Below, one piece after another: positions 192 through 63,468 of a stretch of DNA of 64,000 bases. The stretch's first letter is position 1; every line of letters begins with the position of its first letter. The stretch comes from a virus, in the IMG/VR virus record IMGVR_UViG_3300007511_001544, positions 1 through 64,000 of that record; one strand, given 5' to 3'. A model generated the notes under the pieces. That model was given only the letters and a program-made list of their open reading frames with translations, was not told the DNA's origin and did no database searches. A program made the translations under genes and the position numbers.

Positions 192-434
192 TTATTTCTT
201 TTTCTCGTCGTCCAGCGTTTTCTTGCTCTTTTTACTATCCGGCAAATGTTTCTCAATTCTAAAATTAAGTAATGGCTTGCCGTTGATGGTTGGTTGTCCG
301 AGTTCGTCAGTTCCGATTTCTTTTACGATTATTCTTTTGTTCTTGAATCTTCCGCCCAAAAGAACATCTCCAACTTTGATATCTAATTTCATTTCGTTTA
401 AATACTTCCGCCACTCTGTTAGTAGTTTTTTCAT
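192..434 (-). CDS. Small basic protein with capsid-targeting-like leader
   Basis: This 80-residue protein begins MKKLLTEWRKYLNE, the leader shared by five adjacent genes. It is an amphipathic stretch ending in Leu-Asn-Glu, which fits the (L/I)-x-E cleavage rule of T4-type prohead proteases. The body (residues 15-80) has a short beta-rich part with VGDVLLGGRF and IIVKEIG, which could be an SH3 or KOW-like barrel, and a Lys-rich tail (DSKKSKKTLDDEKKK). A basic packaged protein that binds DNA would fit, but that is inference. It follows the 435-1028 gene directly with a TAAATG junction, so translation is probably coupled. No family recognised beyond the leader. Confidence 0.75.
   Translation of the reverse strand: MKKLLTEWRKYLNEMKLDIKVGDVLLGGRFKNKRIIVKEIGTDELGQPTINGKPLLNFRIEKHLPDSKKSKKTLDDEKKK
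405..434 (-). repeat. Leader-coding repeat, copy 1
   Basis: These 30 nt encode the first ten residues of the 80-residue protein and match 999-1028 at 29 of 30 positions. The only difference is t against g within the Leu codon region. The coding sequence after the leader is unrelated in the two genes. Confidence 0.85.
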
Positions 435-1028
435 TTACGGCACCTGATACTCTTTTGTATCAACAATATCTATTTGATCAGATTTAAACACGATATAGGA
501 ATCGCCACCACCCTCAAAGGTGTTTTCATATTTTATGGAATCAAATCCCAAGGAGGAAAACCATTCTATAAACTCTTCCATCTCTTCTACGGGCTGAAAT
601 GATAAATCTTTAATATTTTCCCCAGACGGAGAAGTCACCACATCATCATAATAATCATTCACCATCTCGTCTGGAATTGCTGGGTGGGGTTCGCCGCCAA
701 AGCCTTCAAACATAGCCTGTAATATTGAATTGACTGACCAAGTTCCTGACCTGTTTTCTGGTAACTCCATCGTCTTGCCGCTGTCTAAATTAACTGTGTA
801 GAGGTAAACGGAGTCACCGGAGTTTATTTTTCCGTCTTTTTGTAATTTATCAGCGACGGTCAGAGCCGTCTCTTTTGTCCCAAAGTGAAAACCAACATCC
901 GAAGATATGGCTGGGTCGGCGGCCATCTGCTGCTGGAACCTATCAAATTTGGCGGGCGAGAGGTGGTAGAATGTTCCACCTGTATTTTCTTTCAAAAACT
1001 TCCGCCACTCTGTTAGGAGTTTTTTCAT
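435..1028 (-). CDS. ADP-ribosyltransferase-like protein with capsid-targeting-like leader
   Basis: The 197-residue protein starts with MKKLLTEWRKFLKE, ending in a Leu-Lys-Glu site. The body resembles the small ADP-ribosyltransferase-like domains found in phage polyvalent and MuF proteins. The opening strand TFYHLSPAKFDRF (19-31) has the family's YH-x-(S/T)-P layout, GFHFGTKETAL (46-56) fits the second conserved block, and a C-terminal GFDSIKY...EGGGDSYIVF (161-181) is the typical closing segment. The expected role is NAD-dependent modification of a host protein. T4 Alt is a precedent: an ART carried in the head behind a capsid-targeting sequence and injected. The start overlaps the upstream stop as ATATGA. 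Assignment rests on motif pattern only; the catalytic Glu is not certain. Confidence 0.6.
   Translation of the reverse strand: MKKLLTEWRKFLKENTGGTFYHLSPAKFDRFQQQMAADPAISSDVGFHFGTKETALTVADKLQKDGKINSGDSVYLYTVNLDSGKTMELPENRSGTWSVNSILQAMFEGFGGEPHPAIPDEMVNDYYDDVVTSPSGENIKDLSFQPVEEMEEFIEWFSSLGFDSIKYENTFEGGGDSYIVFKSDQIDIVDTKEYQVP
999..1028 (-). repeat. Leader-coding repeat, copy 2
   Basis: Second copy of the 30-nt leader-coding sequence, with one mismatch to 405-434. The high DNA identity with unrelated downstream sequence suggests recent duplication or exchange of the leader as a module. Confidence 0.85.
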
Positions 1029-1846
1029 ATCCCTACAGCCTCTGGGTATTTTGTTTTAGCGAACGCAATATATTTATCACGCAGTTCATTGTAAAAGAAG
1101 TCTTTCAGTTCTTCTTCTGTGTATTTTACTCTATATTCGCCGGGAGTTTCTTTCTCGTCTTCGGCGTTTATCTTGTCTCGGCGGCGGCGGAACATATCAA
1201 AGAATTGCTTGATACGCATGTCCAACGCTTCTGTGTAGGGCACCTTGTAATACTTTGCTCTTTTGTAGACCTCTTTGGTGTAGGTGTCCGTTTCAGAGTC
1301 CGAAGCATAATATCCACGAATGCCATCTATTTTATTGTAGTCCCAATTAAGTGGATTGAGAGGTCCTTTGGGTGGGTGAGCGGTGCCCAATACATCAGTG
1401 GTTTGGCCGCCGTGCTGAATTTCGTGGATAGTGATTGCTTTGAGTTCGCCGAGGTAAGCGTTGAGGTCTTGCTCGTTAAATCCGATATCTAAGTAGCTGT
1501 TGATTTTTATGTAGTCGTCTCGGCGGTCAGAGGGGTCACTCATGTGCATTCCGCCTATTTGAAACTTGTCGCCTGTTTCTTCCGCTAGTTTTTTATCAAT
1601 ATGGAAAGTAAACTCTGCTTTGTACATTTTATCTTCAAGTTCTTTTGGGAGGGTTTTGCCTGCTGAAAATGTTTTACCAACAACAAGAATTAAATCCTTG
1701 CGTGAGTTCTGAACATTCTCACTGGGAATAACCTCGTCAATAATATATTTGACGTGAGGTATCACCTTGCGGGTCAATTCTGTTGTGGCTGCTTCGTACC
1801 TTCCCTCTTGGAGAAAGCCTCGCCACTGTTCCATAATCAACTTCAT
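1025..1846 (-). CDS. Zinc-metallopeptidase-like protein with capsid-targeting-like leader
   Basis: The 273-residue protein begins MKLIMEQWRGFLQE (Leu-Gln-Glu site). Residues 139-145 read TIHEIQH, a HExxH zinc-binding motif preceded by hydrophobic residues, as in gluzincin or metzincin-type peptidases. About 40 residues on, DSETDTYTKEV (about 178-188) could supply the third acidic ligand. The region before it (75-130) is predicted to be mixed alpha/beta. The likely activity is peptide hydrolysis, in the head or in the host after injection, but no substrate can be read from the sequence. It ends in an ATGA-type overlap with the ART-like gene and follows the ParB-like gene by 1 nt. A degenerate, non-catalytic member is possible. 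Confidence 0.6.
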   Translation of the reverse strand: MKLIMEQWRGFLQEGRYEAATTELTRKVIPHVKYIIDEVIPSENVQNSRKDLILVVGKTFSAGKTLPKELEDKMYKAEFTFHIDKKLAEETGDKFQIGGMHMSDPSDRRDDYIKINSYLDIGFNEQDLNAYLGELKAITIHEIQHGGQTTDVLGTAHPPKGPLNPLNWDYNKIDGIRGYYASDSETDTYTKEVYKRAKYYKVPYTEALDMRIKQFFDMFRRRRDKINAEDEKETPGEYRVKYTEEELKDFFYNELRDKYIAFAKTKYPEAVGI

Positions 1847-1847
1847 A

Positions 1848-2714
1848 TTACTTGTCTTTTGGGTTCCAGTTTACTTCGCCAGCTTTCATCGCCGCCATTT
1901 TTGCTGTCTCTTTTGATTTTCCTTTAGCTGCGGTCTGTGGCATGAGCCCACGTTCAGGTCCAGCAGCGGCCGCCACCTGAGTAGCAGCAAATAAAGACTC
2001 GGCGTTATCAGCAATTTTGTTAATAACCTCCTCTCGGGTCTTTACCTGATAATGGGGAGCCAGAACTGCCGCAAGCTCTTCTGAGACTACCTTGGGGTTA
2101 CTTAATATTTTTACAATTGCCTCTCGGTCCCCATTTGTTTGAAATATATCCGTAGCGGCATCGGCTGGAACAAGGGGAACTGCTTTATCTACCGCAGCGA
2201 TGGCCAAATGAGCTAGCTTCAAAACGCCTTTAGGGCTATCTAATTTTCCGCCAACTTGAAAGTTATAGACTGGGATGGTGGCATCAGGATTGATCAAATA
2301 TACCTGGGACCATCTGTGGTGACCATCTACTATATATTTTCCGTTTGCCGTAATAATTCGCCCACCTACATTGGCTGGCTTTACTGATCCTTTGGCGATG
2401 GCGGAGCCGCCTTGAGGCGCTTGAGTTGAAAGGTAACCAAGAGAATCCGCTAGTCCAATCTGGCTTTGAGTTGGCTGAAGGTCTTTCACGGGTATATCCG
2501 CCTCTTCTACTGCCACCACATCATCTTGTGCTGCTTGATCTTCAATGCCCATATTTAAGAATTCTTGAAATTTGGGATCTTTGATGCTGTTTGCCAATTT
2601 GCCAACAAACTCTTCATAAGGAGCATCAATTAAGTCTAATAAAACTTTTCTTTTACTTTTATCATACTCTGCCTCTTTCAAAAAATTTCGCCATTCTGTC
2701 ATTAATTTTTTCAT
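1848..2714 (-). CDS. ParB/sulfiredoxin-like domain protein with capsid-targeting-like leader
   Basis: The 288-residue protein begins MKKLMTEWRNFLKE (Leu-Lys-Glu site). Its middle has the layout of the ParB/Srx fold: IPVKDLQPTQSQI (74-86) matches the opening strand and turn, and GKYIVDGHHRW (125-135) matches the nucleotide-binding box. Relatives with DGHHR include ParB-like nucleases and the free-serine kinase group, so the activity may be nucleotide hydrolysis or phosphotransfer. The C-terminal 100 residues are helical and Ala-rich (ATQVAAAAGPERG). It overlaps the next upstream gene by 4 nt and sits in a row of leader-bearing genes, so it is probably a head-packaged protein. Fold call is fair; function is open. 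Confidence 0.6.
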   Translation of the reverse strand: MKKLMTEWRNFLKEAEYDKSKRKVLLDLIDAPYEEFVGKLANSIKDPKFQEFLNMGIEDQAAQDDVVAVEEADIPVKDLQPTQSQIGLADSLGYLSTQAPQGGSAIAKGSVKPANVGGRIITANGKYIVDGHHRWSQVYLINPDATIPVYNFQVGGKLDSPKGVLKLAHLAIAAVDKAVPLVPADAATDIFQTNGDREAIVKILSNPKVVSEELAAVLAPHYQVKTREEVINKIADNAESLFAATQVAAAAGPERGLMPQTAAKGKSKETAKMAAMKAGEVNWNPKDK

Positions 2715-3322
2715 CGTGATTGTACGGTGTAAGTTTTTTGCTCACCGCCTCCAAAATTATCTGTACGGAAATCATCTTTCCTCATTACTGTAATTACTTT
2801 TATGGTGTCCGGACCTTTTCGCATATCCAAAACGGCTATGACGTTGAGGGCTGGAACTTTACCTCTGCCCACCATACGAATATGGAAAGGCTCATCGTTC
2901 GCAAGTTCGCCGTTCGCAAAGTCTTGAATGATTTTGCCGATGGCCATCTCAATTGCTTGGATGATGGCTTGGTTGGAAATCTTTTCGTCGTGGCGGAACT
3001 GGCGTTCCTTGCTGTGTCGGGTTCCCTCAAGGTCAGTATCTTTAAGATTGATAATGACGTTGATGCCTTTGACTTTGGTACTGTAGGCTTGGTCTGCATT
3101 TATGTCAGACATTTTATCTTCTTTGATGGCTGCTCGTCCAACTGTAATAACGCTTGTTCTATCTCTCTTATCGGTTACTTCTACCTTATAAGACTCGCCA
3201 TCAAATGATAGGACTTTGCCTTTGTTGGCGGCAAATAATCCACGAGGAAGTTTTACTATTTTTCCTACTAGACTTTTGTCTTCATTCAGGTATTTCCGCC
3301 ACTGTTCCATTAATAGTTTCAT
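2711..3322 (-). CDS. Two-domain protein with capsid-targeting-like leader, function unknown
   Basis: The 203-residue protein begins MKLLMEQWRKYLNE (Leu-Asn-Glu site). Residues 18-65 (VGKIVKLPRGLFAANKGKVL and on) look like a KOW or SH3-type barrel that could bind RNA or ribosome parts. Residues 100-200 carry RHSKERQFRHDEKIS followed by IIQAIEMAIGKII and VITVMRKDDF. The His/Arg-rich helix before a beta sheet recalls small BECR-fold toxins or RNases (RelE, BrnT, barnase-like), but I cannot align catalytic residues. The ATG has a clear GAGGAG Shine-Dalgarno sequence inside the end of the primase gene. It heads the leader-bearing gene row. Confidence 0.6.
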   Translation of the reverse strand: MKLLMEQWRKYLNEDKSLVGKIVKLPRGLFAANKGKVLSFDGESYKVEVTDKRDRTSVITVGRAAIKEDKMSDINADQAYSTKVKGINVIINLKDTDLEGTRHSKERQFRHDEKISNQAIIQAIEMAIGKIIQDFANGELANDEPFHIRMVGRGKVPALNVIAVLDMRKGPDTIKVITVMRKDDFRTDNFGGGEQKTYTVQSR

Positions 3323-4978: not shown

Positions 4979-5164
4979 TTACTTCTTTTTTACGTCTGCC
5001 TTGCACATTTCTTCAGCTTCGGCTTTAGATAGTTTTGGCTTTCCTTTAAAGTTCTTGCGGGATTTGCCCGCTTGAGCACACGCCCATCGGCGTTGTTTTT
5101 CTGATTCTACTTCGTTAATAACTTCTTGTACCATTTGACGAAGCTGACTCATTGTAATCTTCAT
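4979..5164 (-). CDS. Small conserved protein with related N-terminal helix
   Basis: The 61-residue protein starts MKITMSQLRQMVQEVINEVE, an amphipathic helix related to the nearby leaders but without the Trp. It offers Val-Gln-Glu and Ile-Asn-Glu sites for a prohead protease. The body reads RRWACAQAGKSRKNFKGKP, then a helix (LSKAEAEEMCKADV) and a Lys tail, with two Cys. It could be a packaged protein or a small DNA-binding protein; I do not recognise a named family. The ATG has no Shine-Dalgarno sequence, only the TATTTA element 4 nt before it. Confidence 0.65.
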   Translation of the reverse strand: MKITMSQLRQMVQEVINEVESEKQRRWACAQAGKSRKNFKGKPKLSKAEAEEMCKADVKKK

Positions 5165-18252: not shown

Positions 18253-21200
18253 TCAATATCCGCCCCCAGTACCACCGCCGTCGCCGGAACCTGCACCGCC
18301 TCGGCGTCCATTTGCCGGCATGAGTGGTATGGGCGGTTGCTCTGGCGGCAGCCCTTCAGGAGTTCTCATATTTGGATTTTGTCTGACATACTCTGCCGGA
18401 CTCATTGGCGGTTGTTGATTTGTAAACTCTGGCGGAAGAACCTGGCTTGTTCTGAAGACTGGGGGAGGAGGTTGTACCATAGAAAATTCCATCTGAGCAC
18501 GCAATGTTGGGTTGTTTGCCATTTCCTGTGGTGAAGCCGGCATCCCAGGAGGTGGTGTCATCCCAGGAGGTGGTGTCATCCCAGGAGGTGGTGTCATCCC
18601 AGGAGGTGGTGTCATCCCAGGAGGTGGTGCCATGCCAGGAGGTGGTGCCATGCCAGGAGGTAGCTGAGTAGCTTTGGCTTGTGCTGCCACTAGCTGCTCC
18701 TGTTGTAGTGCTTGTTGTTCTTTTACAGCCCGCTCGCCTCGACTTCGGGCGTCTTTTTCTTGACCTTCTGAAATATCTTCCATCTCTCGGGCAAGTTCTG
18801 GGCGGAAGCCTGTTTTCATTGTCAGTTTTCCAAGCTCTATAAGAGAACAGTAATCATAAGGCCAGTTATAGGTGTTTCCGGCTTCGCCAAGCTTTTCACT
18901 AGACCAAAGGCGCTTGGTATATTCCACTTTTTTATTCTTTAAGAATTCTTTTTGTTCTTGTGGTAAATCTTCTGAAATATACCCAAATATACTGTTATAA
19001 GACAGGGACCCAGGACCACCGTTTAACTCTTCTAGGATCAGTTTTGAAAATTTATCTATCCCACGCTCTTTGACTTTAAATACCATCCATTTTATGTCGG
19101 GCTTAAAGCCATCTTGAGAACCCAGGGCTGCAATATCCAACATGTCAACTCGTGGGTGACCGTTTCTTGGAATACCCAACTCTAATTCCTTGAGAATTAA
19201 TTCTGGGAATACTGTTTTGCCATTTTTTGTCTCGACTGCTTCACCGGGCATATAGTGATCAATAGCTGAAACACTGGTCTTCATGGTGGCGGCAATATCT
19301 GGCATAATGCCTTGCCATATATCAGCCAAATCTTGACGTGAAAGTGCTACGCTATGCTCCATCAAATATACAATGGGAATACTGATCTCTTCCTTCGATG
19401 GGAGTACTTCATCATACTCATCTCCACCGAAAGGGTTAATGAAAGAAGGCACCTTTGGATAATTCGGTGGTAGCAAATTTTCTAAAGATTTCTTCAAGGC
19501 TGGCGGCAGCGAGTATTTTATAAACGCTTTTCTAAATTCTTTGAGCTTAGGCCCCAAAGCACTTGGGTTGGCTTTTAGAGTCATAACCTTCATAGATTGC
19601 GTGGTTTTGTCCATATAATAAGGCATCGCCACGATAGCTTCTGATATTGTTTTTTCATTGTCTTCCGCAATTTGTCCGAGCTTTCTCGCTCTTTCGGATA
19701 TGAAAGCTCCAGGCGGCTGGATATCCTCTTCCTTAAAGCCTACTAATCTAGCTAGTGAATCAACAGTCCTACCAGAATCAAACACAAACTTAGGAACTTT
19801 TCTCACAGCAACTACCTCGCCAGATCCTGTCATGTTGACACCTTGAGCAAAACTGCTTGGAGTTCCATTCTTGTGAGCGACAGTTCCAGTCGGGTTCCCG
19901 AGAAGTCTAAATTCTGTGGTGTCTACAGAAACATCCGAGATATACATAAAGACACCTTCGGCTGAAGATGACGGCATCACTCCGTATTGGTGCCACATAC
20001 CCGTTACGAATGGGTCGTGATCGCCGGACCCGGTAGAAGTAGAAAAGTCGTATCTGTCATAAACACGAGTAACTGCGCTAGCGCCCGCAACAACTGGTTT
20101 TTCTGTAGCATTGGTCGGAAAATCCAAAATTGGACATTCCCACTTGGGCATAATCACCCACTTGTTTTTGTCTCTGGGGGATATGTTTGCTCCATCCGTT
20201 GGGAACAAGTTGTCAATAACAATTGACGCATCAATATCCTGTCTGTTTTGCCAAGCACGATTCCAACCATAAGCCGGCATCCCATCAATGCTCTTAACTC
20301 GACCATCGTCGCCCATAAAAGACCCAGAATCAAAATCATAGTAATGCCCGTTCTCGTTAACAAACTCTATATACAAATCTTCGCCAGAGAGAATTTCCTC
20401 AAGAGACACTTCTTTATTTTCTTTCGGCACATAAGTTATTCGACATATTGCAGGTCCATAATAATATGCAGGTGTAAATGGAGCAAATTCAGCACGAGTA
20501 TATGGCCAACGGCGTCCTGCTGGTATGCTTCCTGTGGTTCCCAATTCAAGAGAAGCTTCTTGATAAAATGGTTTTGTTTGACCGCCAAAGAACGGTCCTT
20601 GCGGAACACCAACAGAATCGTCGGGGGAGCCGACTCTTGTTATAATATTTCCGTTTGAAGCACTTGTCAGAATATCATGAGTAAGAATAAGTGTGTCATC
20701 AGAACCAATAGTGGCGTATATGTCAGTATCGCCATTAGCATACGCTAAGTTGATGGAGGCGGTAATCCTACCAATACGGTGACTCACCGCTGCTAATGTG
20801 TCAGCTTCTTTATATCCAATCTCGTAAGTACCACTTCCACCTTCAGTCAAACCCTGAAGTCTTGATGGTGTGGTTTCGTCGGCGCTATACTTGAATATAA
20901 TCACAGAGGATCCTTGACTTGCGGTATTGAAAAATGATTGTCCCCAGATGTTCGATCCTGAATTTCCACTTATATCTCTGCCTGTGGTCGGATTCAAGCC
21001 GCCAGTCAATGCAAAACTGCTGCTCTTAACTATGTTTGGATCACTTGGAAGATTTTCCATACTTGCAGTTGCTCCGACTCCATAAGCGCCGACACCCTTC
21101 ACATTGGTACTTTTCATCTCGTTCCAGTCAGATGACCCTGTTGCAGTAGCATTACCAAAAGCAGCAGGGTTGCTATACATCATGTGTCTATCAGATTGTT

Positions 21201-24200
21201 TTAATCCAATTTCCATAATGTAAGCTTTTTCTTTTGAGACGGCGACTTTTCTTGCTTCGGTTTGTCCCGCTGGGGATGCGCCGGCTGGAGAGTCGGGGTT
21301 TGCTTTGGCAGGAATTTCTGCCACAAACTTGGACATGAAACCGCCGTCTTCTTGCTGTCTTAGGAAGAACTTCGGAATATTTGCCATAAAGTTTGACATA
21401 CCCAACTTATAAAGCTCATCGTCATAAAGCTTCATGGTGGTAGTTGTTGTGGTCCCGCCGGTCTCGGGGTCGGTTGTTGATGTTGTCTCAATCGAAGCTG
21501 ACGTATTTACAGACCCGGTTACTATACCAAAAAGGATAGGGTTGTGATCGCCCAGGATAATAGGTCTTACTTGGTCGCCGATATAATCTATGGGATTAAA
21601 TATACCCTCAAATGGAACAGTGTCCGAATAAAAGAAATTAGCTGGTCCGGCGGTTAACCTTGTTTCAGAGGCACCGAAAGCTAGCGTATCGTCGAAAAAC
21701 TCAAAGTTGGCTGCGCCACCTTCATTCCTTCTTCTTCGTCCGCCAGGAATGGTAATCGCTGCGTTGGTGGAACCTGTTGCTGTAGCCGTCATACCGCCTA
21801 CAGCGGGAGCATAGTAAGCACTAACCGCACCACTAAGAGGTCCTCCGGTCGGGTGCTCAATTGTGCCCCAGCGAAAATCTTCAACTGCATTTTTTCTCAA
21901 AATTGGGTAGGAAACACCCAAGCCAGATTTTATTGAGTTATAGACAATACCTGGGGCGAAGAAGGGTCTCGACAGTGCTCTAAACTGAGCGGATGCCATA
22001 CGGTATGAACCAGTGGTAGTATAAGGTGCTCCACCAACAGTATCTTGCCATTCATCTGCCGCTTTTCGGGGATAGAATTCATTAGGTTCGCCAGTGAATG
22101 TTGCATATTCTGCATATGATTTAGAAAATTGAGTCGCTAACTCTAAAGTTCTCAACACAGGGTAAAAACCCTCGTAGGGTAAAAGCTTTAGCGTTGCTTC
22201 TGATTTTAATTCTAGGTGCCTTGGGCTTTTATTAAATTGAGAATCTTTTGACTCCCTACTCATGAACACCTTGAGGTATTCTGCAACATCGGAAGTCCCA
22301 TACCTTGGTAAAAACTCTCTATTTTTTGTATTAAATGCAGCTTGACTATTGACATCGTTTGTTGCGCCTGTTATATCCAAAGCCGCAGAAAGAACCGTCG
22401 TAAAGTTACCAAGATCCTTATATTCATTCATCAAAGTGCTTATTCTAAACTCTGGTATGATTGTCTGGTCTTTTCCGGCTAAACGAACTTCTTGTGCCCA
22501 GTCTTCGTAGTTATTATACCAGGGGTATCTAGCTGGGGCAAGGTCTCCCTTCTTGGGTCCGTCCACAAACCTTCTTTGTTCTCCAGCCGTCCAGGCGGGT
22601 CGTGTTATGGGACCCCCAATAGCATTAAACTCAGCAACAAATTTCTTCTTACCGCCATCGCCGGTCTGGCGTAGAACCTCTGTTGGTACAGAATAAACAT
22701 ATTGACAAGAATTTAAACTTGAGGTATTCCAACGGATACCGCCCGTGCTTGTATCGCCTGCGCTGCCTGTGTTGTCCCCCGCCCCACTGAGGACAACTCC
22801 ATAGTGCGGCATCATCAATTCGCCCGCTGGTAACGTTGATGCCATACAAGCCAACAACTTGGTTGTTGGGGACGTTACGGCAGCCGATAGTGCCACCCCT
22901 GTAAGGTACGCCTGCAAGTGAGGGTGAGCATAATAAAAAGAATCCAAAGGCCATGTTGACGCAGACCCATAGTTGGAGAAAGACGGCTGTCCTCCCCCTG
23001 GAGCATTAACATACATTCCAAATTTCTTAGCATATCCCACAGTTCCTGAAGCAACTTTCCAAGATTCATTTGGTGATTCTTGATTGCTCCATGTAAATGA
23101 TCCAGTCGGAAACTGCTCATCCATTCTAACAAAATACCCAAACGAAGAACTGTATCCTTGTCCCTCTAATTGTCGATCATCTACTCTGCGGTTCCATGCA
23201 CGGTTCCAATCTTGAATATTCGCATCACTAATGAGTGACTCAAGAGTTGTGACCCCCTGTTTTAAAGTAAAAAGACTGCCTGTGTTTTCTATATCGCTGC
23301 GCCAAAAGCTATTTCTATAGTATTCTCTGGCACGGGAGGCGGAAGAATATGTATATATTTCTCGTGGGTATACTGTTTCTTCGTAAGTCATCATTTTTAT
23401 GAGTTCTACACCGTCCACTGATGGGTCCACATTGGCTACAAAATTATCTCTAAGAATTTCATAGGGTCTTTTTAATTGCCCAAGCTTAAATGATTGCTTG
23501 TTTCCAAGATCTACATTTAATCCTCGATTAGCAAATCCTTGCAATTCGTTACCATAAGAATATTTCATAGTTACATCAACAAATTCCTTCTCAGTTTTTG
23601 ATGGTGTCCCTCTTGGAGTCTTGATATGATGTATCAGGGGTTTATATCGAGAAGTTACAGCAGGCTCTTTATATCTTTTGCCTATGAAAAACGTGACGTT
23701 ATTACCGCCAAGAGGATTTGCAAAAGTCAGTGCTCTATCCTGATATTGGGTATTTGCCTTCAATTGGTCGGAAACGTCCTGCCCCCTTCTTTTTGATTGC
23801 ATCTTGTCACCATCAATTTGCTCAACCTTTTGGGCTTCATATGTTATTGTCGGAGCGTCTATAATGTAATAATTCTGTTTTGCGTTATATCTCCCCAAGG
23901 TGGTGTATTGCCCAAATCGTGTTTGAGTCCAGGGTACCCACCCATAGGGACCATTAACTTCCCAGAGATACTGTATTTGTCCCGCTGAGTTACTAAAGAC
24001 ACCGTTAGATTGCACACCAAATCCACCTGGGTATAATTTCCATTTTTCGGCGTTTGCAACAGAAGAAGTATGAAGAGTAATATTTTCTGGGAATCTTGAC
24101 GAAGATAGTATAAACTTATGAAAATTATCCGCATAATTTTGTCCCGGCCAATCCCCAATAGCCCCTTGAGAGTGAGACATTCTCATGAACCATGCGATTC

Positions 24201-27200
24201 TGTCTCCGTCGGGAATAGGTCTTGTAATATAAGCGTTATCTCTCAAAGAGCCCGTCGCCATAATCTCCACCAAAGGAGAATTTAAATTTCCAGAAACTAA
24301 CCTTGGTCGTAAAATCGTGTTTCTTTGTGTTTTGTGTATGGCCACCAACGAAGCAGTTGCATCAGAAACATCATCTCCATATACAGCAGGAAATGCTCCC
24401 GACGGAGTAACAACACCTTCATTAAAAGAGGGCATGTCTATCGAATCAAAACGAGTTAACAATGTATTGAGAGATGCGGTTTGGAACCCTCCCCATCCCG
24501 TATGTCTTTTGAGCAGTGTTTGTAGTTTTTGCCGCACAACAATATTTCTAAATGGTAATGCATTGTTCGGCGCAAACTGGTCGGACGGGCGGTCCCTGAA
24601 CATTTGCGTTGAATCAAACTTACTGCCCGGCGCAGCAAATCTCTCTGCAATAATTGCTTTATTCACTTTTACATTGGATCGTTGCCTTGGGGCATCATAA
24701 TCTACGGAACCTGTGTCGCCTGAAGTTCTTCTAGCGGGCGTCGTTACAAAAGGAGTGGGCATAGAACCACTTGTAAAGGTGGGGTTTTTAAAATAGGTTT
24801 CTGTGTTCAAAGCAAAATCTAAATTCGTCTTTGATCGATCTTGCGTTTGATATATCTCATAAGTTTTAGTATAATTACCTATAGCAGAAGCGCCGCCGTC
24901 AGGAGCCAGTGTTCCCGTAGGTGTTTTTATATTTTCAATATTTACAGGTCGAGATGTGCCAGGACCTCTTGTATACTGTCCTTTTGGTGTTTCATCTGTT
25001 TTATGTGTACTAAATGATCCGCCACCAGTTACCAAGTCTAGCTTAAATGATTCTTTTCTTTCATTTCTAGATGGAACTTTTTGTGCAGCAGGAGGAACAG
25101 ATCGAGCTTGTTGTCCGCCTACATGTTGTTTTGTAAATGGGGTTTGTATACTTTCTTGACGATGATGTAGGTTAGCAAAATCTACATTCGTAATCCCTTT
25201 GTCTTGTAGTTGTTTCTGGTAGCCCGTATCGACAGTAGAACTAACAGGCGTGAACGGAATGAGTTTCTCTCCCTGCATGTCTCCTGAACCAGGGAGAGAT
25301 GCGCTAAGGCTTCTTTTTATTTTCTTAATTTCGTTTGGAATTATTTCCTCATCTATGTCTTTTTCTGCTACTAGTCCACCAAAATTTATTTCCGCAAGCC
25401 CGACTTGTTTTACTTTCTCCCTCATTTTTTCTTCTAATTTAGACATTTGAGGCGCAAACGCACTAATCGAAACAAGACCGATTGGGTTATAGCTTCTTTG
25501 TGCCGCAGCAAATATTGCTTCTCTAGATTCCATCACCCCAGGGTTCGATTGGGAAATTACAGGATTGTCTCTTTCGGCTCTAGATTGCCACCAGAAAGCA
25601 TTTTGGTTTTCCTTTTGCGGCGAAGAAGGAAGAGGGGCGTGAGAGAACTTCCACCCAAAAGGTTGAATGAGTCCTTCTTTGGAAATATTACTTCCTTTTC
25701 CTTTCTGGCGGACTGCCTTAATTGGTTGACCACCCTTGTTGCTAAGTTCTGGATTGATTCTGGCCTGGTCTGGTGGTGGTGTGGGAATAATTTGTGCGCC
25801 GTTACCACCCTCAGAAGCTGGTAAAGACTGTTGTCTGTTACCCATAAAATTGTATTCAAGCTTTGGTCTTTCAAGAAGGTGGTTCTCAATCATCGTGCGA
25901 ACACCTGGGGCAAACCTTGCACTAGCTGGGAACAACTGCTCTAACATGTGTCCCAGGGCAGAATCTACCCATTTATAATATTTCAGGTATTTCTCTAGGT
26001 CTGGTGTATTCCCCACTTTTGAAAAGAATATTTGCCTCAATTTCTCCATGGATTTATATTTTGGACGAAAGCGATTTACTGGCTCGCCTATCATATTGTT
26101 AAGGTCATCAATAGAGGCAAAAAGATTTAACATCTTTTGAGAAATGCTTCTATACATGCTTTTCTCAATTGCATAATAGAACCTTTCCGGGCGCATCATA
26201 GGGGCGAAAGCTTCGTCGTCTATATCCTTCAAAGTCACCATCTCACTACTCAAAGCATATTCTGGCAATTGTATGCGATCAGTATATACAAATTCTTTTC
26301 TTATAGGGGCTGAAGAGGTTGGGAAGAAATCTCCTCGACCAGTATGAAATCTGTAACTTATGTGCTGAGGGGATTCCTGATATAAACTTCCACGAGAACC
26401 TGATGCGAGCGAACCAGAAGAAAAATCTGACACGTTGAATCGACCGCTTGGATCACTACCTGTAACATCTGCAAAATCCCAGTTTAAAGCAAGGGTGTCT
26501 ATTTGCGGAATGTAAACAGAGGGATTGTATGTCTGGAACAGATAAGAATTTCTGGTGGGGTGGAGTCTTCCGTAACTATCGACTTCTCTGGAGTGTAGAT
26601 CAATGGTTCCGGTCGGAAGAACATCGGTCCAATAACGAAGACTAGAAGCCCTAACATCACTTGCAGTCAACAACGATCCAGTGAAATTTGTCCTACGAGC
26701 ACCAACATAAAATCTTTTTGCAGAGGATACAATATCTGATCCTGATTTATATGTCAGAGATGCTGTGGTATAAAAGCTATTTCTTTGTATCCCAGAGTCA
26801 TAATTTACAGCATAGAATTTAAGGTCGTAGCCTTCCGAAATATCAGCCAACGACGCTGAATTCTGTGCGAACGGAAAATCTTTTGGAGCAACCGTTAATG
26901 AAATATTCCATTTTTGATTGTCATAAACGTTTGTAAAAACAGAAGAAGTAAGCAGAACATTGTTATGCCTGTCTAAAACTTTAAAGAAAGCGTCCCTTAC
27001 TTCGTCAATTGGGGACTCTACCTCTGCCATTAGGGACGCTGACTTAATTGCTACAACTTGTAACCCAGAGTCATAGTGGGGTCCCCACCAAGTTGTATCC
27101 GTAGATGATGATAGAATATCTTTTGGTGTGTGCCACCCAAACAAAGATGAAGTAGACACCTGGCGTGGAGTATAATCGAGTTTATCCACATGTATTTTAT

Positions 27201-29274
27201 TTGGGAACACGAACTCGCATTCCGCTGTAAACCCAAATTCCAACAAAGAAAGGCTTCCGCTACTGCCGCTTATAATCCCATATGATTCGGGCAAATCTGG
27301 ATTGGGATATTGATATATTGTAGCTGCGGAGGAAGACTGGTCTATTAGTCCCGTAAAATCTGCATATTTTTTATTACTAACATCTGCTCTATAATTCGTA
27401 CTTAATTTATAGTCGGAATTTGAACTATACATGTTTAAGTGAAGTATTTCTTCATCTATTCCAAAACAACGTATAAAATTTCGTACCGCCTTTTCGTTGC
27501 CTTTGGATTTAAAAATATGAGTAATGTTATTATATAAGTTTTTGTAGATTGTGTTCTTTACGGAACTTAAATCTTGTTCAAAATTTATGTCTTCGTCTCG
27601 TTTTAAGAACTGTGCCAAAAGGCTTGCATTAGCAAACAATTCTGGTGCCTCAAAACCCAAACTCTCCAAGACACGATCATTGTAAGGAAATTCATTTATG
27701 CTACCAGTCGAACTACCGCTCAAATAGCGCATGTCTTTAATCTTTGTTAGTTGTGAGATTTGTGCATGTAAAGTATCAAAATAATTTGCGATTACTTGTG
27801 ATACATTTTTAAGCTCGTCTCCAGAATTTGCATCTTCTTCTGTAATCCATGCCGGCAATGTATTTAAAATATAAGAAGAGTTTCCATAGTCGTACTGCCG
27901 ACCAAGATCGGTCAATTCTTCCTTTCTAACTGTCATAGTAGAAGCAGAGGGGATAACAATGGGATCCTCGGGTTCTGTCCTAGAGTCAACAGAAGACGTC
28001 AAAGACTGTTGGGTTATTGCGGAACCTGTGTTTCTTGCACCGGCAGCATATCCCGTCCAAGTACCATTGGAAATTCTTCCTGAGTAATCTAGTACTAAAT
28101 TATCAACACTACTTGTTCCTGTAACCCCTTCGTTAAACTTATAATAAACACCTAGATCAACATTGGCATCTTGTGTATTTGTGCCGCCGTGTACATGGGA
28201 AAACCAATACCTTCCGACTTGCTGTCCCGTTCTGGCTGATTTCCAGAACCTGAATTCATCTAAAGATGCTGATAATTTTCCATACCCTTCGAGCGGATCT
28301 TTTGTTCCGGAGGGCGGATTACGGAGGGCACCAATGTTACCTATCATTGAGCCCGTAACCAGGCTAATTTGACCTGCTTGATGTCCACTAGCGGTTATGT
28401 TTGATTCGTGGCAAGCTCCATTAATATAGAAGTCAATTGCGGGCGTAGTTCCTGAAGTATTAAAAACAAACGAAAAATGATTCCAGCCGCTTCCAGTGAT
28501 GTATTTTCCAACACCGCCGGTTGTTGGAATGGATTGTGTCACATAGCCAGTTGTGCCCGAAAGCATCGTGACCAAAAATCGATCCTCTAAGCTTTTAGAA
28601 AGTTCAATTCGAAGATTTCCGAAACACCCATTTGTTACATCGCTTTCGACAGATCCTGTCCTAACCCCATTCCACAGGTCAAAAACAACCTGTATTGGAG
28701 ATTGGGTGTCGGTGCCAGGGTCTCCAGGGATTGCCGACTTTGATAGGAAGAACTCGACAGTGGAACCACTTGGTCCACCAAATTCTAGGTTGTTTTGCCT
28801 ATATTTAGTAGAGAAAAGTGTTCCAGAGTGCGGACCACCCTTGATTTGAATATACTCTGTTTTGCTACCGGGAGTGTAATAGTGAGAGCTTTTTGACACT
28901 GGTGTGCCGTATGCCGTACCAAGACTGACGAACCCTGTTGACTTAGGGTATCTTTCATCTAAAATATATTTTTCTAACGGATTTAATTCGTTATAAAACT
29001 TTTCTTTTTCGTACTTTGATCCGTCATATGGGTAGTTGTTCGTAATATAGTTAAAAGCATTTTCGTAATATTTTTCTGCGGAACCATATTTTGCAAATTC
29101 TTCAGGATTTCCATAATCCAAAGGAGGAATAAATGCATCACGTCTTTTGATGCTCTCGCTTAAATGATGTGCAGATTCTATGCCTCCACTTAGAGTACCG
29201 GCGGCGCTCTTGGCAAGATATTTGCCGACGACCTCTCCTGTGCTATTTTGTTGAAATAACTTTTTTATGCTCAT
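18253..29274 (-). CDS. Giant virion protein, 3673 residues, with LamG-like domain and Pro-Gly-Met repeats
   Basis: This is the longest gene in the window (11 kb). Residues about 140-400 have a concanavalin/LamG-like layout: TVEFFLSK, GWNHFSFVFNTSG, IDFYINGA, LSASLDEFRFWKSART and VYYKFNEG, which in other proteins is a carbohydrate or cell-surface binding fold. Residues about 570-620 (NTIYKNLYNNITHIFKSKGN then EKAVRNFIRCFG) recall P2 gpI-like tail proteins. A long beta-rich middle follows. The C-terminus is helical and Gln-rich, then has seven PPGM repeats and a Gly-rich end (GAGSGDGGGTGGGY). It is probably a tail or baseplate protein with receptor or scaffold roles. Its gene overlaps the upstream one by 4 nt. 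I found no frameshift. Confidence 0.75.
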   Translation of the reverse strand: MSIKKLFQQNSTGEVVGKYLAKSAAGTLSGGIESAHHLSESIKRRDAFIPPLDYGNPEEFAKYGSAEKYYENAFNYITNNYPYDGSKYEKEKFYNELNPLEKYILDERYPKSTGFVSLGTAYGTPVSKSSHYYTPGSKTEYIQIKGGPHSGTLFSTKYRQNNLEFGGPSGSTVEFFLSKSAIPGDPGTDTQSPIQVVFDLWNGVRTGSVESDVTNGCFGNLRIELSKSLEDRFLVTMLSGTTGYVTQSIPTTGGVGKYITGSGWNHFSFVFNTSGTTPAIDFYINGACHESNITASGHQAGQISLVTGSMIGNIGALRNPPSGTKDPLEGYGKLSASLDEFRFWKSARTGQQVGRYWFSHVHGGTNTQDANVDLGVYYKFNEGVTGTSSVDNLVLDYSGRISNGTWTGYAAGARNTGSAITQQSLTSSVDSRTEPEDPIVIPSASTMTVRKEELTDLGRQYDYGNSSYILNTLPAWITEEDANSGDELKNVSQVIANYFDTLHAQISQLTKIKDMRYLSGSSTGSINEFPYNDRVLESLGFEAPELFANASLLAQFLKRDEDINFEQDLSSVKNTIYKNLYNNITHIFKSKGNEKAVRNFIRCFGIDEEILHLNMYSSNSDYKLSTNYRADVSNKKYADFTGLIDQSSSAATIYQYPNPDLPESYGIISGSSGSLSLLEFGFTAECEFVFPNKIHVDKLDYTPRQVSTSSLFGWHTPKDILSSSTDTTWWGPHYDSGLQVVAIKSASLMAEVESPIDEVRDAFFKVLDRHNNVLLTSSVFTNVYDNQKWNISLTVAPKDFPFAQNSASLADISEGYDLKFYAVNYDSGIQRNSFYTTASLTYKSGSDIVSSAKRFYVGARRTNFTGSLLTASDVRASSLRYWTDVLPTGTIDLHSREVDSYGRLHPTRNSYLFQTYNPSVYIPQIDTLALNWDFADVTGSDPSGRFNVSDFSSGSLASGSRGSLYQESPQHISYRFHTGRGDFFPTSSAPIRKEFVYTDRIQLPEYALSSEMVTLKDIDDEAFAPMMRPERFYYAIEKSMYRSISQKMLNLFASIDDLNNMIGEPVNRFRPKYKSMEKLRQIFFSKVGNTPDLEKYLKYYKWVDSALGHMLEQLFPASARFAPGVRTMIENHLLERPKLEYNFMGNRQQSLPASEGGNGAQIIPTPPPDQARINPELSNKGGQPIKAVRQKGKGSNISKEGLIQPFGWKFSHAPLPSSPQKENQNAFWWQSRAERDNPVISQSNPGVMESREAIFAAAQRSYNPIGLVSISAFAPQMSKLEEKMREKVKQVGLAEINFGGLVAEKDIDEEIIPNEIKKIKRSLSASLPGSGDMQGEKLIPFTPVSSTVDTGYQKQLQDKGITNVDFANLHHRQESIQTPFTKQHVGGQQARSVPPAAQKVPSRNERKESFKLDLVTGGGSFSTHKTDETPKGQYTRGPGTSRPVNIENIKTPTGTLAPDGGASAIGNYTKTYEIYQTQDRSKTNLDFALNTETYFKNPTFTSGSMPTPFVTTPARRTSGDTGSVDYDAPRQRSNVKVNKAIIAERFAAPGSKFDSTQMFRDRPSDQFAPNNALPFRNIVVRQKLQTLLKRHTGWGGFQTASLNTLLTRFDSIDMPSFNEGVVTPSGAFPAVYGDDVSDATASLVAIHKTQRNTILRPRLVSGNLNSPLVEIMATGSLRDNAYITRPIPDGDRIAWFMRMSHSQGAIGDWPGQNYADNFHKFILSSSRFPENITLHTSSVANAEKWKLYPGGFGVQSNGVFSNSAGQIQYLWEVNGPYGWVPWTQTRFGQYTTLGRYNAKQNYYIIDAPTITYEAQKVEQIDGDKMQSKRRGQDVSDQLKANTQYQDRALTFANPLGGNNVTFFIGKRYKEPAVTSRYKPLIHHIKTPRGTPSKTEKEFVDVTMKYSYGNELQGFANRGLNVDLGNKQSFKLGQLKRPYEILRDNFVANVDPSVDGVELIKMMTYEETVYPREIYTYSSASRAREYYRNSFWRSDIENTGSLFTLKQGVTTLESLISDANIQDWNRAWNRRVDDRQLEGQGYSSSFGYFVRMDEQFPTGSFTWSNQESPNESWKVASGTVGYAKKFGMYVNAPGGGQPSFSNYGSASTWPLDSFYYAHPHLQAYLTGVALSAAVTSPTTKLLACMASTLPAGELMMPHYGVVLSGAGDNTGSAGDTSTGGIRWNTSSLNSCQYVYSVPTEVLRQTGDGGKKKFVAEFNAIGGPITRPAWTAGEQRRFVDGPKKGDLAPARYPWYNNYEDWAQEVRLAGKDQTIIPEFRISTLMNEYKDLGNFTTVLSAALDITGATNDVNSQAAFNTKNREFLPRYGTSDVAEYLKVFMSRESKDSQFNKSPRHLELKSEATLKLLPYEGFYPVLRTLELATQFSKSYAEYATFTGEPNEFYPRKAADEWQDTVGGAPYTTTGSYRMASAQFRALSRPFFAPGIVYNSIKSGLGVSYPILRKNAVEDFRWGTIEHPTGGPLSGAVSAYYAPAVGGMTATATGSTNAAITIPGGRRRRNEGGAANFEFFDDTLAFGASETRLTAGPANFFYSDTVPFEGIFNPIDYIGDQVRPIILGDHNPILFGIVTGSVNTSASIETTSTTDPETGGTTTTTTMKLYDDELYKLGMSNFMANIPKFFLRQQEDGGFMSKFVAEIPAKANPDSPAGASPAGQTEARKVAVSKEKAYIMEIGLKQSDRHMMYSNPAAFGNATATGSSDWNEMKSTNVKGVGAYGVGATASMENLPSDPNIVKSSSFALTGGLNPTTGRDISGNSGSNIWGQSFFNTASQGSSVIIFKYSADETTPSRLQGLTEGGSGTYEIGYKEADTLAAVSHRIGRITASINLAYANGDTDIYATIGSDDTLILTHDILTSASNGNIITRVGSPDDSVGVPQGPFFGGQTKPFYQEASLELGTTGSIPAGRRWPYTRAEFAPFTPAYYYGPAICRITYVPKENKEVSLEEILSGEDLYIEFVNENGHYYDFDSGSFMGDDGRVKSIDGMPAYGWNRAWQNRQDIDASIVIDNLFPTDGANISPRDKNKWVIMPKWECPILDFPTNATEKPVVAGASAVTRVYDRYDFSTSTGSGDHDPFVTGMWHQYGVMPSSSAEGVFMYISDVSVDTTEFRLLGNPTGTVAHKNGTPSSFAQGVNMTGSGEVVAVRKVPKFVFDSGRTVDSLARLVGFKEEDIQPPGAFISERARKLGQIAEDNEKTISEAIVAMPYYMDKTTQSMKVMTLKANPSALGPKLKEFRKAFIKYSLPPALKKSLENLLPPNYPKVPSFINPFGGDEYDEVLPSKEEISIPIVYLMEHSVALSRQDLADIWQGIMPDIAATMKTSVSAIDHYMPGEAVETKNGKTVFPELILKELELGIPRNGHPRVDMLDIAALGSQDGFKPDIKWMVFKVKERGIDKFSKLILEELNGGPGSLSYNSIFGYISEDLPQEQKEFLKNKKVEYTKRLWSSEKLGEAGNTYNWPYDYCSLIELGKLTMKTGFRPELAREMEDISEGQEKDARSRGERAVKEQQALQQEQLVAAQAKATQLPPGMAPPPGMAPPPGMTPPPGMTPPPGMTPPPGMTPPPGMPASPQEMANNPTLRAQMEFSMVQPPPPVFRTSQVLPPEFTNQQPPMSPAEYVRQNPNMRTPEGLPPEQPPIPLMPANGRRGGAGSGDGGGTGGGY
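18541..18660 (-). repeat. 18-nt tandem repeat encoding PPPGM(T/A)
   Basis: Seven nearly perfect units of 18 nt (catcccaggaggtggtgt, with catgcc and gcc variants at one end) encode PPGM-APPPGM-APPPGM followed by four TPPPGM units. The repeats lie in the C-terminal tail of the 3673-residue protein and are expected to vary in copy number between related phages. Confidence 0.95.
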
Positions 29275-44171: not shown

Positions 44172-44477
44172 TTATTCTCCTTCTTTAAAGAAATCTGCTG
44201 TATTTACAGCCTTGTCACATATAAAAATATCATAGGGAGGCTTCCACATTTTTATTTCGTGGTATTTGGCTCCCCACACATTAAGTTGCTCGTGCGTGAG
44301 GGCTGTCCAATCTATTCCCGTTGTCCCGCCACGAGCCGTCCAGTACACAATAGTATCACCACTATCGTACATTTGGTTTATCTTTTCGATGTTCTTCATG
44401 ATCGGTATCGCAGAGGGATAATGTCTTTCCCCCTCATAAGTACATATTGTATCATCTATGTCAACGTAAACTAAAAT
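44172..44477 (-). CDS. HAD-like sugar-operon phosphatase with probable ATT start
   Basis: The visible frame translates to LVYVDIDDTICTYEGERHYP, which is the HAD motif I with the Asp pair, then the Thr/Ser-type YWTARGG motif and a late CDKAVNT motif. Relatives of about 100-120 residues occur in capsule and LPS operons and are often annotated as phosphatase or phosphoheptose isomerase. No ATG, GTG or TTG lies before motif I in frame. The first usable codon is ATT at 44477, with a GGAGA Shine-Dalgarno sequence 7-8 nt upstream, and it overlaps the stop of the nucleotidyltransferase gene. An internal ATG at 44399 would remove the catalytic Asp and is unlikely. Spacing suggests translational coupling. 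Function: dephosphorylation of a sugar phosphate, inferred. Confidence 0.65.
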   Translation of the reverse strand: MLVYVDIDDTICTYEGERHYPSAIPIMKNIEKINQMYDSGDTIVYWTARGGTTGIDWTALTHEQLNVWGAKYHEIKMWKPPYDIFICDKAVNTADFFKEGE

Positions 44478-44866
44478 TTCTGTTTCTCCAGTATTTTTGT
44501 GGTAGAATAATTGCCGATCCTGTCAAAGAAATCAACCCTGCCTGCATACTGACTGCCGACAACCTCTTTGCCTCTCCAGTCAGATCCTACAACTAGAATA
44601 TCAGGTTTTGTTAATTTTATTAAGTTCTCTAATTCTTTTCTAGACCCAAAATCATATACTTCGTCAACATACCTTATGGAAGATACTAAAAACATTCTAT
44701 CCCCCAAGCTGTTAAAAGGTCGGTCATTACCCTTTACAGCTTTGACTTTTTCATCAGTATCAATTCCAACAATCAGCGTATCTCCAAGAGATTTTGCATA
44801 TTTAAACATCTCAATGTGCCCTCTATGTAAAACATCAAAGCACCCATTTGTCCAAACTGTAGTCAT
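44471..44866 (-). CDS. HldE/RfaE2-like sugar-1-phosphate nucleotidyltransferase
   Basis: The 131-residue protein starts MTTVWTNGCFDVLHRGHIEM, with the HxGH motif (14-17) of the cytidylyl/adenylyltransferase fold, and has the RPFNSLGDRMFLVSSIRYVDEV and VVGSDWRGKEVVGS blocks of the heptose-1-phosphate adenylyltransferase domain of HldE. The YSTTKI end is also typical. It would activate a heptose or related sugar phosphate with ATP or CTP. The true start is the ATG at 44866, which overlaps the stop of the kinase gene as ATGA; a longer reading from 44908 adds 14 Cys-rich residues and no homology. Together with the kinase gene it is a split HldE. Confidence 0.75.
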   Translation of the reverse strand: MTTVWTNGCFDVLHRGHIEMFKYAKSLGDTLIVGIDTDEKVKAVKGNDRPFNSLGDRMFLVSSIRYVDEVYDFGSRKELENLIKLTKPDILVVGSDWRGKEVVGSQYAGRVDFFDRIGNYSTTKILEKQKF

Positions 44867-45609
44867 ACGATACTTACACCCCTCTTTTGGACAACTTTTG
44901 TAGCACACTCATTGGCGAACTTGATAGCTTCCTTAATATCGTTTGTTTCCAAATATTTTGCCACAAGTCCTGCTATAAATGTATCACCACCACCTGAAGA
45001 GTCTTTGATTTCCACCTTTGGAACAGGAAATACTTCGTCACGATATTTACATCCTTCAGAGCCGAGCGTAATAATCAACTTGTCATATATGTTTTGGTTA
45101 AGTAAGTGTTTTGTCCGATTATGCTCATAGTAGTTTATCTTTATAAATTCTATATTATCACACCAGGGTCCCAACAATCTCTTAGTATCCAGAAACACAT
45201 TCTGGTTGAGAAGAGATATTTGTTTCATTGATTTTTCCGTCAAAAACCCCTTACAGTAGTCAGATATGATTACTGCGTCATATTCTCTTATCGCCTCTTC
45301 TTTTAGCAAAAATGCGTCAAAAGGTTGGGAAACTTCGTCATTTTCATCTATGCGGAGGAGCATTTGGTTGGTTTTGTCATCAATATAACGACTTTTTTTA
45401 GATTTTTCCCAACCATCGTTCGTGAGAATATCAACCGCTACCCCTAGAGATGTGATATTTTGAGCAACATTCATCGCCATACCGTTAGTCTCTACTGTGT
45501 TGATTCCGTTGAAAACAGGAACAGGTGCGTCGGGGCATAACCTGTCGCAGTTACCATAGTTAAATATATCTTTGCAGCTTTCGCCTATTATCAAAACCTT
45601 CTTAGACAT
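44863..45609 (-). CDS. HldE/RfaE1-like sugar kinase (PfkB family)
   Basis: The 248-residue protein has the PfkB features of heptose-7-phosphate kinase: GESCKDIFNYGNCDRLCPDAPVP resembles the RISPEAPVPV block of RfaE1, MNVAQNITSLG follows, and SSGGGDTFIAG (204-214) holds the catalytic D209. It would phosphorylate a heptose phosphate at C1 before nucleotide transfer by the downstream partner. It is about 60 residues shorter than the HldE kinase domain, so parts of the lid may be missing. Its start overlaps the upstream stop as TAATG. No heptose isomerase (GmhA) is visible in the window, so the host may supply the substrate. Confidence 0.75.
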   Translation of the reverse strand: MSKKVLIIGESCKDIFNYGNCDRLCPDAPVPVFNGINTVETNGMAMNVAQNITSLGVAVDILTNDGWEKSKKSRYIDDKTNQMLLRIDENDEVSQPFDAFLLKEEAIREYDAVIISDYCKGFLTEKSMKQISLLNQNVFLDTKRLLGPWCDNIEFIKINYYEHNRTKHLLNQNIYDKLIITLGSEGCKYRDEVFPVPKVEIKDSSGGGDTFIAGLVAKYLETNDIKEAIKFANECATKVVQKRGVSIV

Positions 45610-47563: not shown

Positions 47564-48296
47564 TTCTATTCCTCAAATATCTTCGAATATTATCTTCTGA
47601 CGACAAGGCAGCCGTTGGAAAAACCTCTACCAACTCTTGGTTAGGTAGGTTTGGTGTTTTGTAGGTGTATTTTCCAAACTTGACCTCTTTCTTTAAAAGA
47701 TCAGCTACCTGCTTAAAATCAACATTTCCCGACGATATAAAGTCAACAATTCCATTATATTTGCTCATATAGGACATCTTTATAAAACTGAGAATATCTT
47801 CTTGTAGAATATAATTGAAAGTGGATTTTCCTGATAAAGAGACTTCTGGGTTTTCGTCCTCGATGATCTTTCGAAAATTGTTTTTTCTCATCGTTTCTCC
47901 AAGAATAGCTCCGCAACGAAGGATAAGAGTTCTAGTTGTTAACCTTTTAACAATAGACTCTGCCATTAATTTTGTTGTTTTATATAAGCTGCTTTCATCA
48001 CGATATACATCAATAGAGGATAAAAATACAAATTTATGATGAGGTAACAATGATACACTTCTCGTTAGAAAAACATTATCCTCAAGCAATCCATAATAAT
48101 CATTCGTATCTTTGGTCGAATTAAAGGCACAATGAATAATGAGATCGAACGGCTTTGTTTTGTACTTGGATAAAATCTCTTGGCAGTTTTCTCGTGTCAT
48201 TGCCACACATTCTATCTGTGATGCAATATATTTACCAAGTCCGCTTCCTGCTCCCGTTACTAAAACTCTACTTCCTGAAAGCGTTGTGTCTGTCAT
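47556..48296 (-). CDS. Short NAD-dependent epimerase/reductase
   Basis: The 246-residue SDR has GAGSGLGKYI at the N-terminus, LIIHCAFNS, SSIDVY and the catalytic Tyr-Lys pair in YKTTK. It is shorter than the extended family (about 310-340) and lacks most of the C-terminal substrate domain, ending in EDNIRRYLRNRNE. A role as 4-keto reductase of a nucleotide sugar is likely. The ATG at 48296 has a GGAG Shine-Dalgarno sequence and overlaps the upstream gene by 29 nt, the largest overlap between sound genes in this block. Confidence 0.65.
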   Translation of the reverse strand: MTDTTLSGSRVLVTGAGSGLGKYIASQIECVAMTRENCQEILSKYKTKPFDLIIHCAFNSTKDTNDYYGLLEDNVFLTRSVSLLPHHKFVFLSSIDVYRDESSLYKTTKLMAESIVKRLTTRTLILRCGAILGETMRKNNFRKIIEDENPEVSLSGKSTFNYILQEDILSFIKMSYMSKYNGIVDFISSGNVDFKQVADLLKKEVKFGKYTYKTPNLPNQELVEVFPTAALSSEDNIRRYLRNRNE

Positions 48297-53702: not shown

Positions 53703-53703
53703 T

Positions 53704-59407: not shown

Positions 59408-59411
59408 TTTC

Positions 59412-60362: not shown

Positions 60363-60363
60363 A

Positions 60364-63465: not shown

Positions 63466-63468
63466 TTT

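Follow-up and report, generated by a model that had tools for sequence, protein, structure and literature searches.

Bacteriophage T4 packages the internal proteins IPI, IPII and IPIII and the ADP-ribosyltransferase Alt by means of an N-terminal capsid-targeting sequence (CTS; Mullaney and Black; reviewed in PMC9026906, PMC3012670). IPII and IPIII begin with MKTYQEFIAE, of which residues 4 and 7 drive targeting and residues 8 and 10 processing, and the gp21 (S77) prohead protease follows the cleavage rule L/I-x-E (PMC9026906). Diverse T-even internal proteins sharing only a CTS have been described (PMC3012670, PMC9026906). In the T4-like cyanophages S-CREM2 and S-SCSM1 a SAM lyase homologue, a kinase and a nucleotidyltransferase with an MKxFxxFLxE-type start were found in the virion, and the Cas9-like nuclease has a related motif at residues 19-25 (PMC10665884, PMC9602691). 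In the giant phages phiKZ, 201phi2-1 and SPN3US many head proteins are processed C-terminal to Glu by a prohead protease, with a different cleavage motif (S/A-x-E in phiKZ; PMC10052503, PMC9026906). Polyvalent proteins, which are predicted to be injected with the DNA, carry ART-PolyVal, ParB-like and peptidase domains in one large multidomain protein (Iyer et al., 2017, PMC5512222).

Here, a 64,000-nt window of a marine T4-like phage (IMG/VR record IMGVR_UViG_3300007511_001544, positions 1 to 64,000), which is part of a 118.6-kb contig, was analyzed. The original prediction of five adjacent proteins sharing a capsid-targeting-like leader that ends in L-x-E was confirmed. All five ORFs exist with ATG starts, and each leader ends in L-x-E at residues 12-14, after which the proteins diverge. 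The ORFs lie on the minus strand, which had not been stated, so that 2711-3322 is the first gene and 192-434 the last. The identified features are as follows:

2711-3322, minus strand: leader protein 1, 203 aa (MKLLMEQWRKYLNE followed by DKSLV), function unknown
3281-3322, minus strand: W-class leader of protein 1
1848-2714, minus strand: leader protein 2, 288 aa (MKKLMTEWRNFLKE followed by AEYD), weak ParB-like nuclease domain (PF08857, E 0.008, below cut-off; phrog_2859, E 5e-7)
2673-2714, minus strand: W-class leader of protein 2
1025-1846, minus strand: leader protein 3, 273 aa (MKLIMEQWRGFLQE followed by GRYE), HExxH metallopeptidase-like, with H-E-x-x-H invariant in the six aligned sequences
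1805-1846, minus strand: W-class leader of protein 3
435-1028, minus strand: leader protein 4, 197 aa (MKKLLTEWRKFLKE followed by NTGG), ADP-ribosyltransferase of the polyvalent-protein type (PF18760, E 3e-4, below cut-off; weak here, stronger in other leader proteins)
987-1028, minus strand: W-class leader of protein 4
192-434, minus strand: leader protein 5, 80 aa (MKKLLTEWRKYLNE followed by MKLD), function unknown, highly charged C-terminus
393-434, minus strand: W-class leader of protein 5
4979-5164, minus strand: protein of a second leader class (K-class), 61 aa (MKITMSQLRQMVQEVINEVE)

The set is larger than originally predicted. Four more W-leader ORFs were found on the same contig outside the window (about 95.4-99.1 kb), as well as several ORFs of the second type, one of them inside the window at 4979-5164 (MKITMSQLRQMVQEV). 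The leaders had also been described as short amphipathic basic helices. The basic character is mild (net about +2), whereas the two predicted structures, of the HExxH and ART proteins, show a helix at this place only at very low confidence (pLDDT 43 and 36) and were not used.

To determine whether the leader could occur by chance, a 13-column matrix derived from the five sequences was scored over all six frames of a different 190-kb phage, the relative G002. This resulted in 8 hits of 23.5 bits or more, all of them at ATG/GTG. The best hit not at a start reached 19.3 bits and the best of 583,542 shuffled positions 14.8 bits. In the IMG/VR viral contigs more than 118 stretches matched the leader pattern, compared to 0 for a codon-scrambled pattern. 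One leader was found in 141 distinct proteins that fall into 61 unrelated body clusters. The synonymous codons are nearly independent (0.515 vs. 0.564), so the peptide itself is selected. Since related sequences share ancestry, some of these counts are not independent.

The leaders are largely consistent with the T4 CTS. They are short N-terminal sequences located at the true protein start, and the W-class (W8-x-x-F/Y11-L12-x-E14) and the K-class (L8-x-x-I11-I12-x-E14) show the same spacing as the T4 residues shown to matter. The W-class leader (MKKLLTEWRKFLKE) is four residues longer than that of T4 and has Trp instead of Tyr/Phe, while the second class is aliphatic (MKITKSQLRKIIKEEL-xxx-LxE). 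Nine or more W-leader genes are present per contig, compared to about four proteins in T4, and the enzyme repertoire is broad. Of 25 leaders lacking L/I-x-E at residue 14, 17 have this motif within the next residues (control 11.5%). For the K leaders, a second L/I-x-E at residue 22 was identified in 28% (background about 1%). In addition, K and W leaders were found on the same body, which is 98.2% identical over 111 aa starting at the first residue after the L-x-E of the W leader. A resemblance of the leader to the N-terminus of the major capsid protein of this group (ALLSKWEKTGLLEGL) is not claimed, since its spacing differs and the leader matrix does not score it at 8 bits or more in G002.

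The S77 protease could not be found on the contig of the window. This may be due to fragmentation. The absence of a T4-type protease from the genome, named in the original prediction as a refutation, cannot be tested on this contig, which is a fragment lacking the head genes. An S77 protease is encoded by the near-identical overlapping record G001 (97.7 bits) and by G002 (106.5 bits; cut-off 27), matching the T4 gp21 structure (5JBL, E 9e-19). It was identified in all 7 leader contigs of at least 170 kb and in 16 of 22 of at least 100 kb, compared to 2 of 11 random contigs. The latter were selected by an arbitrary 15-mer, as the scrambled pattern yielded no control contigs. The capsid protein of this group has LLKE followed by QTTMQAG at what appears to be the place where T4 gp23 is cut.

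Next, the leaders were compared to published virion proteomes. In S-CREM2, 4 of 219 ORFs have the N-terminal motif and all 4 are among the 52 proteins detected by mass spectrometry (p 0.003), including a homologue of the W-leader cargo SAM lyase. Using loose hydrophobic classes, the enrichment weakens (5 of 9, p 0.04). The leader of this phage is short and T4-like rather than of the W or K type, the authors do not mention a leader, and they warn of possible carry-over of abundant proteins in CsCl fractions, leaving open that the enzymes are contaminants (PMC10665884). In S-SCSM1, the virion NMNAT starts with MKSFLQFLKE followed by A (PMC9602691).

The W-class cargo domains are host-directed enzymes, namely ADP-ribosyltransferase, SAM lyase, GNAT, C39 and C70-like peptidases, exonuclease and 2H phosphodiesterase. 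ART-PolyVal was detected in four of 61 leader-body representatives (best E 6e-15). These domain types fit those of the polyvalent proteins, but the five proteins of the window are separate, small (80-288 aa) and have at most one recognizable domain each, each with its own tag. For the ART of the window and the HExxH protein of a relative, no tblastn match was found among cultured phages.

Taken together, the leader is most likely a T4-type CTS, as originally predicted, although this reading rests on indirect evidence, since no virion of this lineage has been analyzed and no cleaved N-terminus was found reported for these leaders. Late in infection it would dock each tagged protein into the scaffolding core of the prohead. 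The S77 protease would then cut after the Glu of L-x-E, and the freed body would stay among the packaged DNA and be ejected with it into the next host, to act before phage transcription starts (against restriction, RNA polymerase or other host targets). Core docking, cleavage at residue 14, injection and the target of each cargo are inferred. Gene turnover would place new effector bodies behind the same 14-residue tag, so that tags and cargoes would recombine freely. The original prediction took the system as not described for this phage type, but the principle is known from T4. The leader classes, their interchangeability and the scale are new, and a literature search for the K-leader peptide found nothing. 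It is slightly more likely than not that T4-superfamily phages of the ocean use a general, interchangeable address-tag system with at least two tag classes, which loads on the order of twenty different proteins per virion, and that the tag alone predicts injected effectors, including anti-restriction SAM lyases and ADP-ribosyltransferases, across a great many uncultured phages. If the tag is the packaging address, raw environmental sequence could be turned into a catalogue of head-delivered effectors, which are usually unknown without purified virions. This would also explain why enzymes such as SAM lyase, NMNAT and kinases keep turning up in cyanophage virions, and would give two new short tags for loading chosen proteins into phage heads as well as a natural experiment on which CTS residues matter.

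Alternatively, the tagged proteins could be core or maturation proteins that stay in or shape the head. T4 core proteins are also packaged and cut, IPIII affects head morphology (PMC9026906), and many K-class cargoes are small and acidic without recognizable domains. This is considered unlikely, since the W-class cargo domains are host-directed and the cargo turns over between close relatives at one locus, unlike structural proteins. A localization helix acting inside the infected cell (on membrane, polymerase or another partner) would fit a short, mildly basic N-terminus on many unrelated proteins, as would any docking peptide. It does not explain the shifted L-x-E sites, the homology breaks right after L-x-E, the T4 CTS spacing or the virion detection in S-CREM2, and is therefore very unlikely. 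Least likely is a DNA- or RNA-level element (recombination hotspot, ribosome binding or 5′ coding signal) or a recent duplication without a role for the peptide. The genes are packed with 4-nt overlaps and the leader would make a convenient recombination junction, but codons for identical residues differ almost as often as if drawn at random. Moreover, W8, L12 and E14 are invariant across the 61 bodies, although partly fixed by the search pattern, and no unusual RNA fold was found over one leader start (z -0.79).

The C-terminal body of protein 1 also occurs in relatives behind other upstream segments, always preceded by I-K-E, L-M-E or L-T-E. The SAM-lyase body is also carried by the Campylobacter phages CP220, CPt10 and IBB_35, although the published gel list of CP220 does not name it. 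In four phages with different leaders, the SAM lyase bodies begin at SSLSR directly after an E, which belongs to L-x-E in three of them and to F-N-E in CPt10.

The window comprises the first 64 kb of a 118,568-bp viral record with a T4-type contractile-tail baseplate. The five ORFs are located on the minus strand, almost without gaps or with 4-nt overlaps, downstream of a primase-like gene. Their N-termini are as described in the original prediction, which had proposed a shared capsid-targeting-like leader ending in L-x-E. Besides these five tryptophan-containing (W) leaders, further leader ORFs, including those of a second (K) type, were found on the contig:
About 95.4-99.1 kb: further W-leader ORFs (MKLLMENWRKFLKE, MKHKLIMENWRLYEQRLLWE, MKHLMREWRKFLSE, MKKLMDRWRVFINE)
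4979-5164, in the window: second leader type (MKITMSQLRQMVQE)
95,130: second leader type (MKITKALLRTIIKE)

To determine whether the leader could occur by chance, a matrix built from the five leaders was run over all six frames of G002, a 190-kb relative. Eight hits of 23.5 bits or more were obtained, all of which were located at ATG or GTG, whereas the best other hit reached 19.3 and the best shuffled score was 14.8. The 141 distinct leader proteins fall into 61 body clusters without detectable similarity. M1, K2, W8, L12 and E14 are invariant, although these positions were partly fixed by the pattern used. Synonymous codons differ in 51.5% of the comparable pairs, compared to 56.4% expected if drawn independently. 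Selection is therefore on the peptide.

Next, the leaders were compared to the T4 internal proteins. IPII and IPIII, as read from the T4 record, begin with MKTYQEFIAE. It has been described that the first ten residues suffice, that residues 4 and 7 matter for targeting and residues 8 and 10 for processing, and that gp21 cuts after L/I-x-E (PMC9026906, a review of Black's work). The W leader is MKKLLTE-W8-RK-F11-L12-K-E14 and the K leader is MKITKSQ-L8-RK-I11-I12-K-E14, which is the same spacing with four additional residues at the front. For the K leaders, a second L/I-x-E peak was found at residue 22 (28% against a background of about 1%). In locus L162, a K leader (MKITRRQLKQIIKEEL) lies inside an open frame far from its start, at about residue 277, as if two tagged units were fused head to tail (K-leader protein of 375 aa starting at 484; second leader at about 1315).

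For the analysis of the cleavage site, a pattern was used that stops before the L-x-E. In 201 of 226 W leaders [LIVM]-x-E was found at the expected place. Of the 25 leaders in which it was missing, 17 have L/I-x-E within the next 14 residues (for example MKQLLTEWRKFVLTE/G and MKDLLTEWRKYEQQVLLVE/G, the slash marking the predicted cut), against 11.5% of the control windows. The binomial p of 5e-11 is too optimistic, since some of the 25 leaders are related to each other. A helix alone would not require such a site.

Leader and body were found to be separate modules, which are joined at the predicted cut. Locus L068 has MRITKSQLRQIIKEEVSSVLNE/EEEYYHIEDATYEDGTL and locus L010 has MKKLLTEWRQFLNE/EEEYYHISDATYEDGTL, whereas the bodies are 98.2% identical over 111 residues starting right after the L-x-E of the W leader. 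A second pair was also identified. The body of the window protein at 2711-3322 recurs in relatives behind different upstream segments and is always preceded by I-K-E, L-M-E or L-T-E. Between conserved flanking genes, six close relatives carry 20 different families at this locus.

The S77 protease could not be found on the contig of the window, but the head genes were not found on that contig either. The record G001, which overlaps the left end of the window with the same genes, carries S77 about 18 kb further on, next to terminase-, portal-, scaffold- and capsid-like genes (these head-gene names were read from sequence and not from a family search). The same arrangement was found in G002, whose protease matches T4 gp21 (5JBL) with an E-value of 9e-19. 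Among the leader contigs, S77 was found in 7 of 7 contigs of at least 170 kb, in 16 of 22 of at least 100 kb and in 6 of 17 of 65-100 kb. In comparison, it was found in 2 of 11 random contigs of at least 65 kb.

Independent virion data are available for the cyanophage S-CREM2, whose S77 is 46% identical to the G002 enzyme and for which 52 of 219 proteins were found in the virion (PMC10665884). Exactly four S-CREM2 ORFs start with aromatic-xx-aromatic-L/I/M/F/V-x-E within the first residues, and all four are in the virion (p = 0.003). These are the SAM hydrolase ORF6 (MKDFDSFLEE), the APH-like kinase ORF14 (MKRFDAFLTE), ORF136 (MQTFSMFFSE) and the cytidylyltransferase ORF154 (MKNFSSFLTE). In addition, the Cas9-like ORF12 has the motif at residues 19-25. 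The authors of that study do not mention a leader and caution about carry-over. The virion NMNAT of S-SCSM1 starts with MKSFLQFLKE/A. A 69-aa virion protein of the same phage (ORF93; locus L376, 16627-16836) ends with RTFKEFLEYIE, a leader-like motif at the C-terminus instead of the N-terminus. NMNAT-like proteins are found in cyanophage virions, but a 657-aa protein at 73,571-75,544 of record G000 (locus L001), which has a KVDGQN motif like nucleotidyltransferases near the N-terminus and a GGFKPPHAGHF cytidylyltransferase/NMNAT-like part, lacks the leader.

ORF6 of S-CREM2 carries the same body family as the largest W-leader cluster (26 proteins), which was recognized as SAM lyase (PF23780, E 1.7e-9). 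In Microcystis phage Mel-JY01 and Alishewanella phage Slicko01 this body follows other leaders ending in ILGE and LSE. In Campylobacter phage CPt10 the residues preceding it are FNE, which does not fit L/I-x-E.

Besides SAM lyase, the cargo comprises ADP-ribosyltransferases (four clusters), GNAT acetyltransferases, C39/C70-like peptidases, an NTN-type acyltransferase, a P-loop AAA_33, a 2H phosphodiesterase, an RNase T-like exonuclease and ParB-like domains. In the window, an ART-like, an HExxH metallopeptidase-like and a ParB-like protein as well as two unknown proteins were identified, where the ART and ParB matches of the window are below the Pfam cut-offs.

The proposed model (docking to the prohead core, cleavage by S77 after L-x-E, release among the DNA and ejection) follows what is known from T4, although targeting, cleavage and ejection were not observed for these leaders. 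Most likely the K class works in the same way, but no K-leader protein has virion data. The K-leader proteins, such as that at 4979-5164 in the window and those of many other K-class loci, are mostly small, acidic and unclassified and are very common in viral contigs. They could be core components rather than effectors.

T-even internal proteins have already been described as diverse defence proteins that share only a capsid-targeting sequence (CTS; PMC3012670), and the CTS has been proposed as a general route in Black's review (PMC9026906), so that the principle is known. As far as the searched literature shows, which was restricted to open-licence papers, the two leader classes, their interchangeability, their spread over at least 61 body types in viral contigs and the enzyme repertoire are new.

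Furthermore, the phage encodes a PrkA kinase, a SpoVR protein and a DUF444 protein in a row (G000 90,655-95,101, locus L002, and G002 95,847-100,294), a trio known from bacterial stress responses. At 77,330-80,318 of G000 (locus L001), a trypsin-like protease with a lipoprotein-type signal was found and, on the opposite strand, a lipoprotein-like protein with repeats and a possible von Willebrand A region. In the window, about 20 genes at 44,471-63,996 look like sugar-nucleotide, lipopolysaccharide or nonulosonate biosynthesis genes (short-chain dehydrogenases, NeuB-like, CMP-sugar transferase-like), as read from N-terminal sequences only. A single ORF of 3,673 aa (18253-29274), which is located between tail genes, probably encodes a large tail-fibre or adhesin-like protein.
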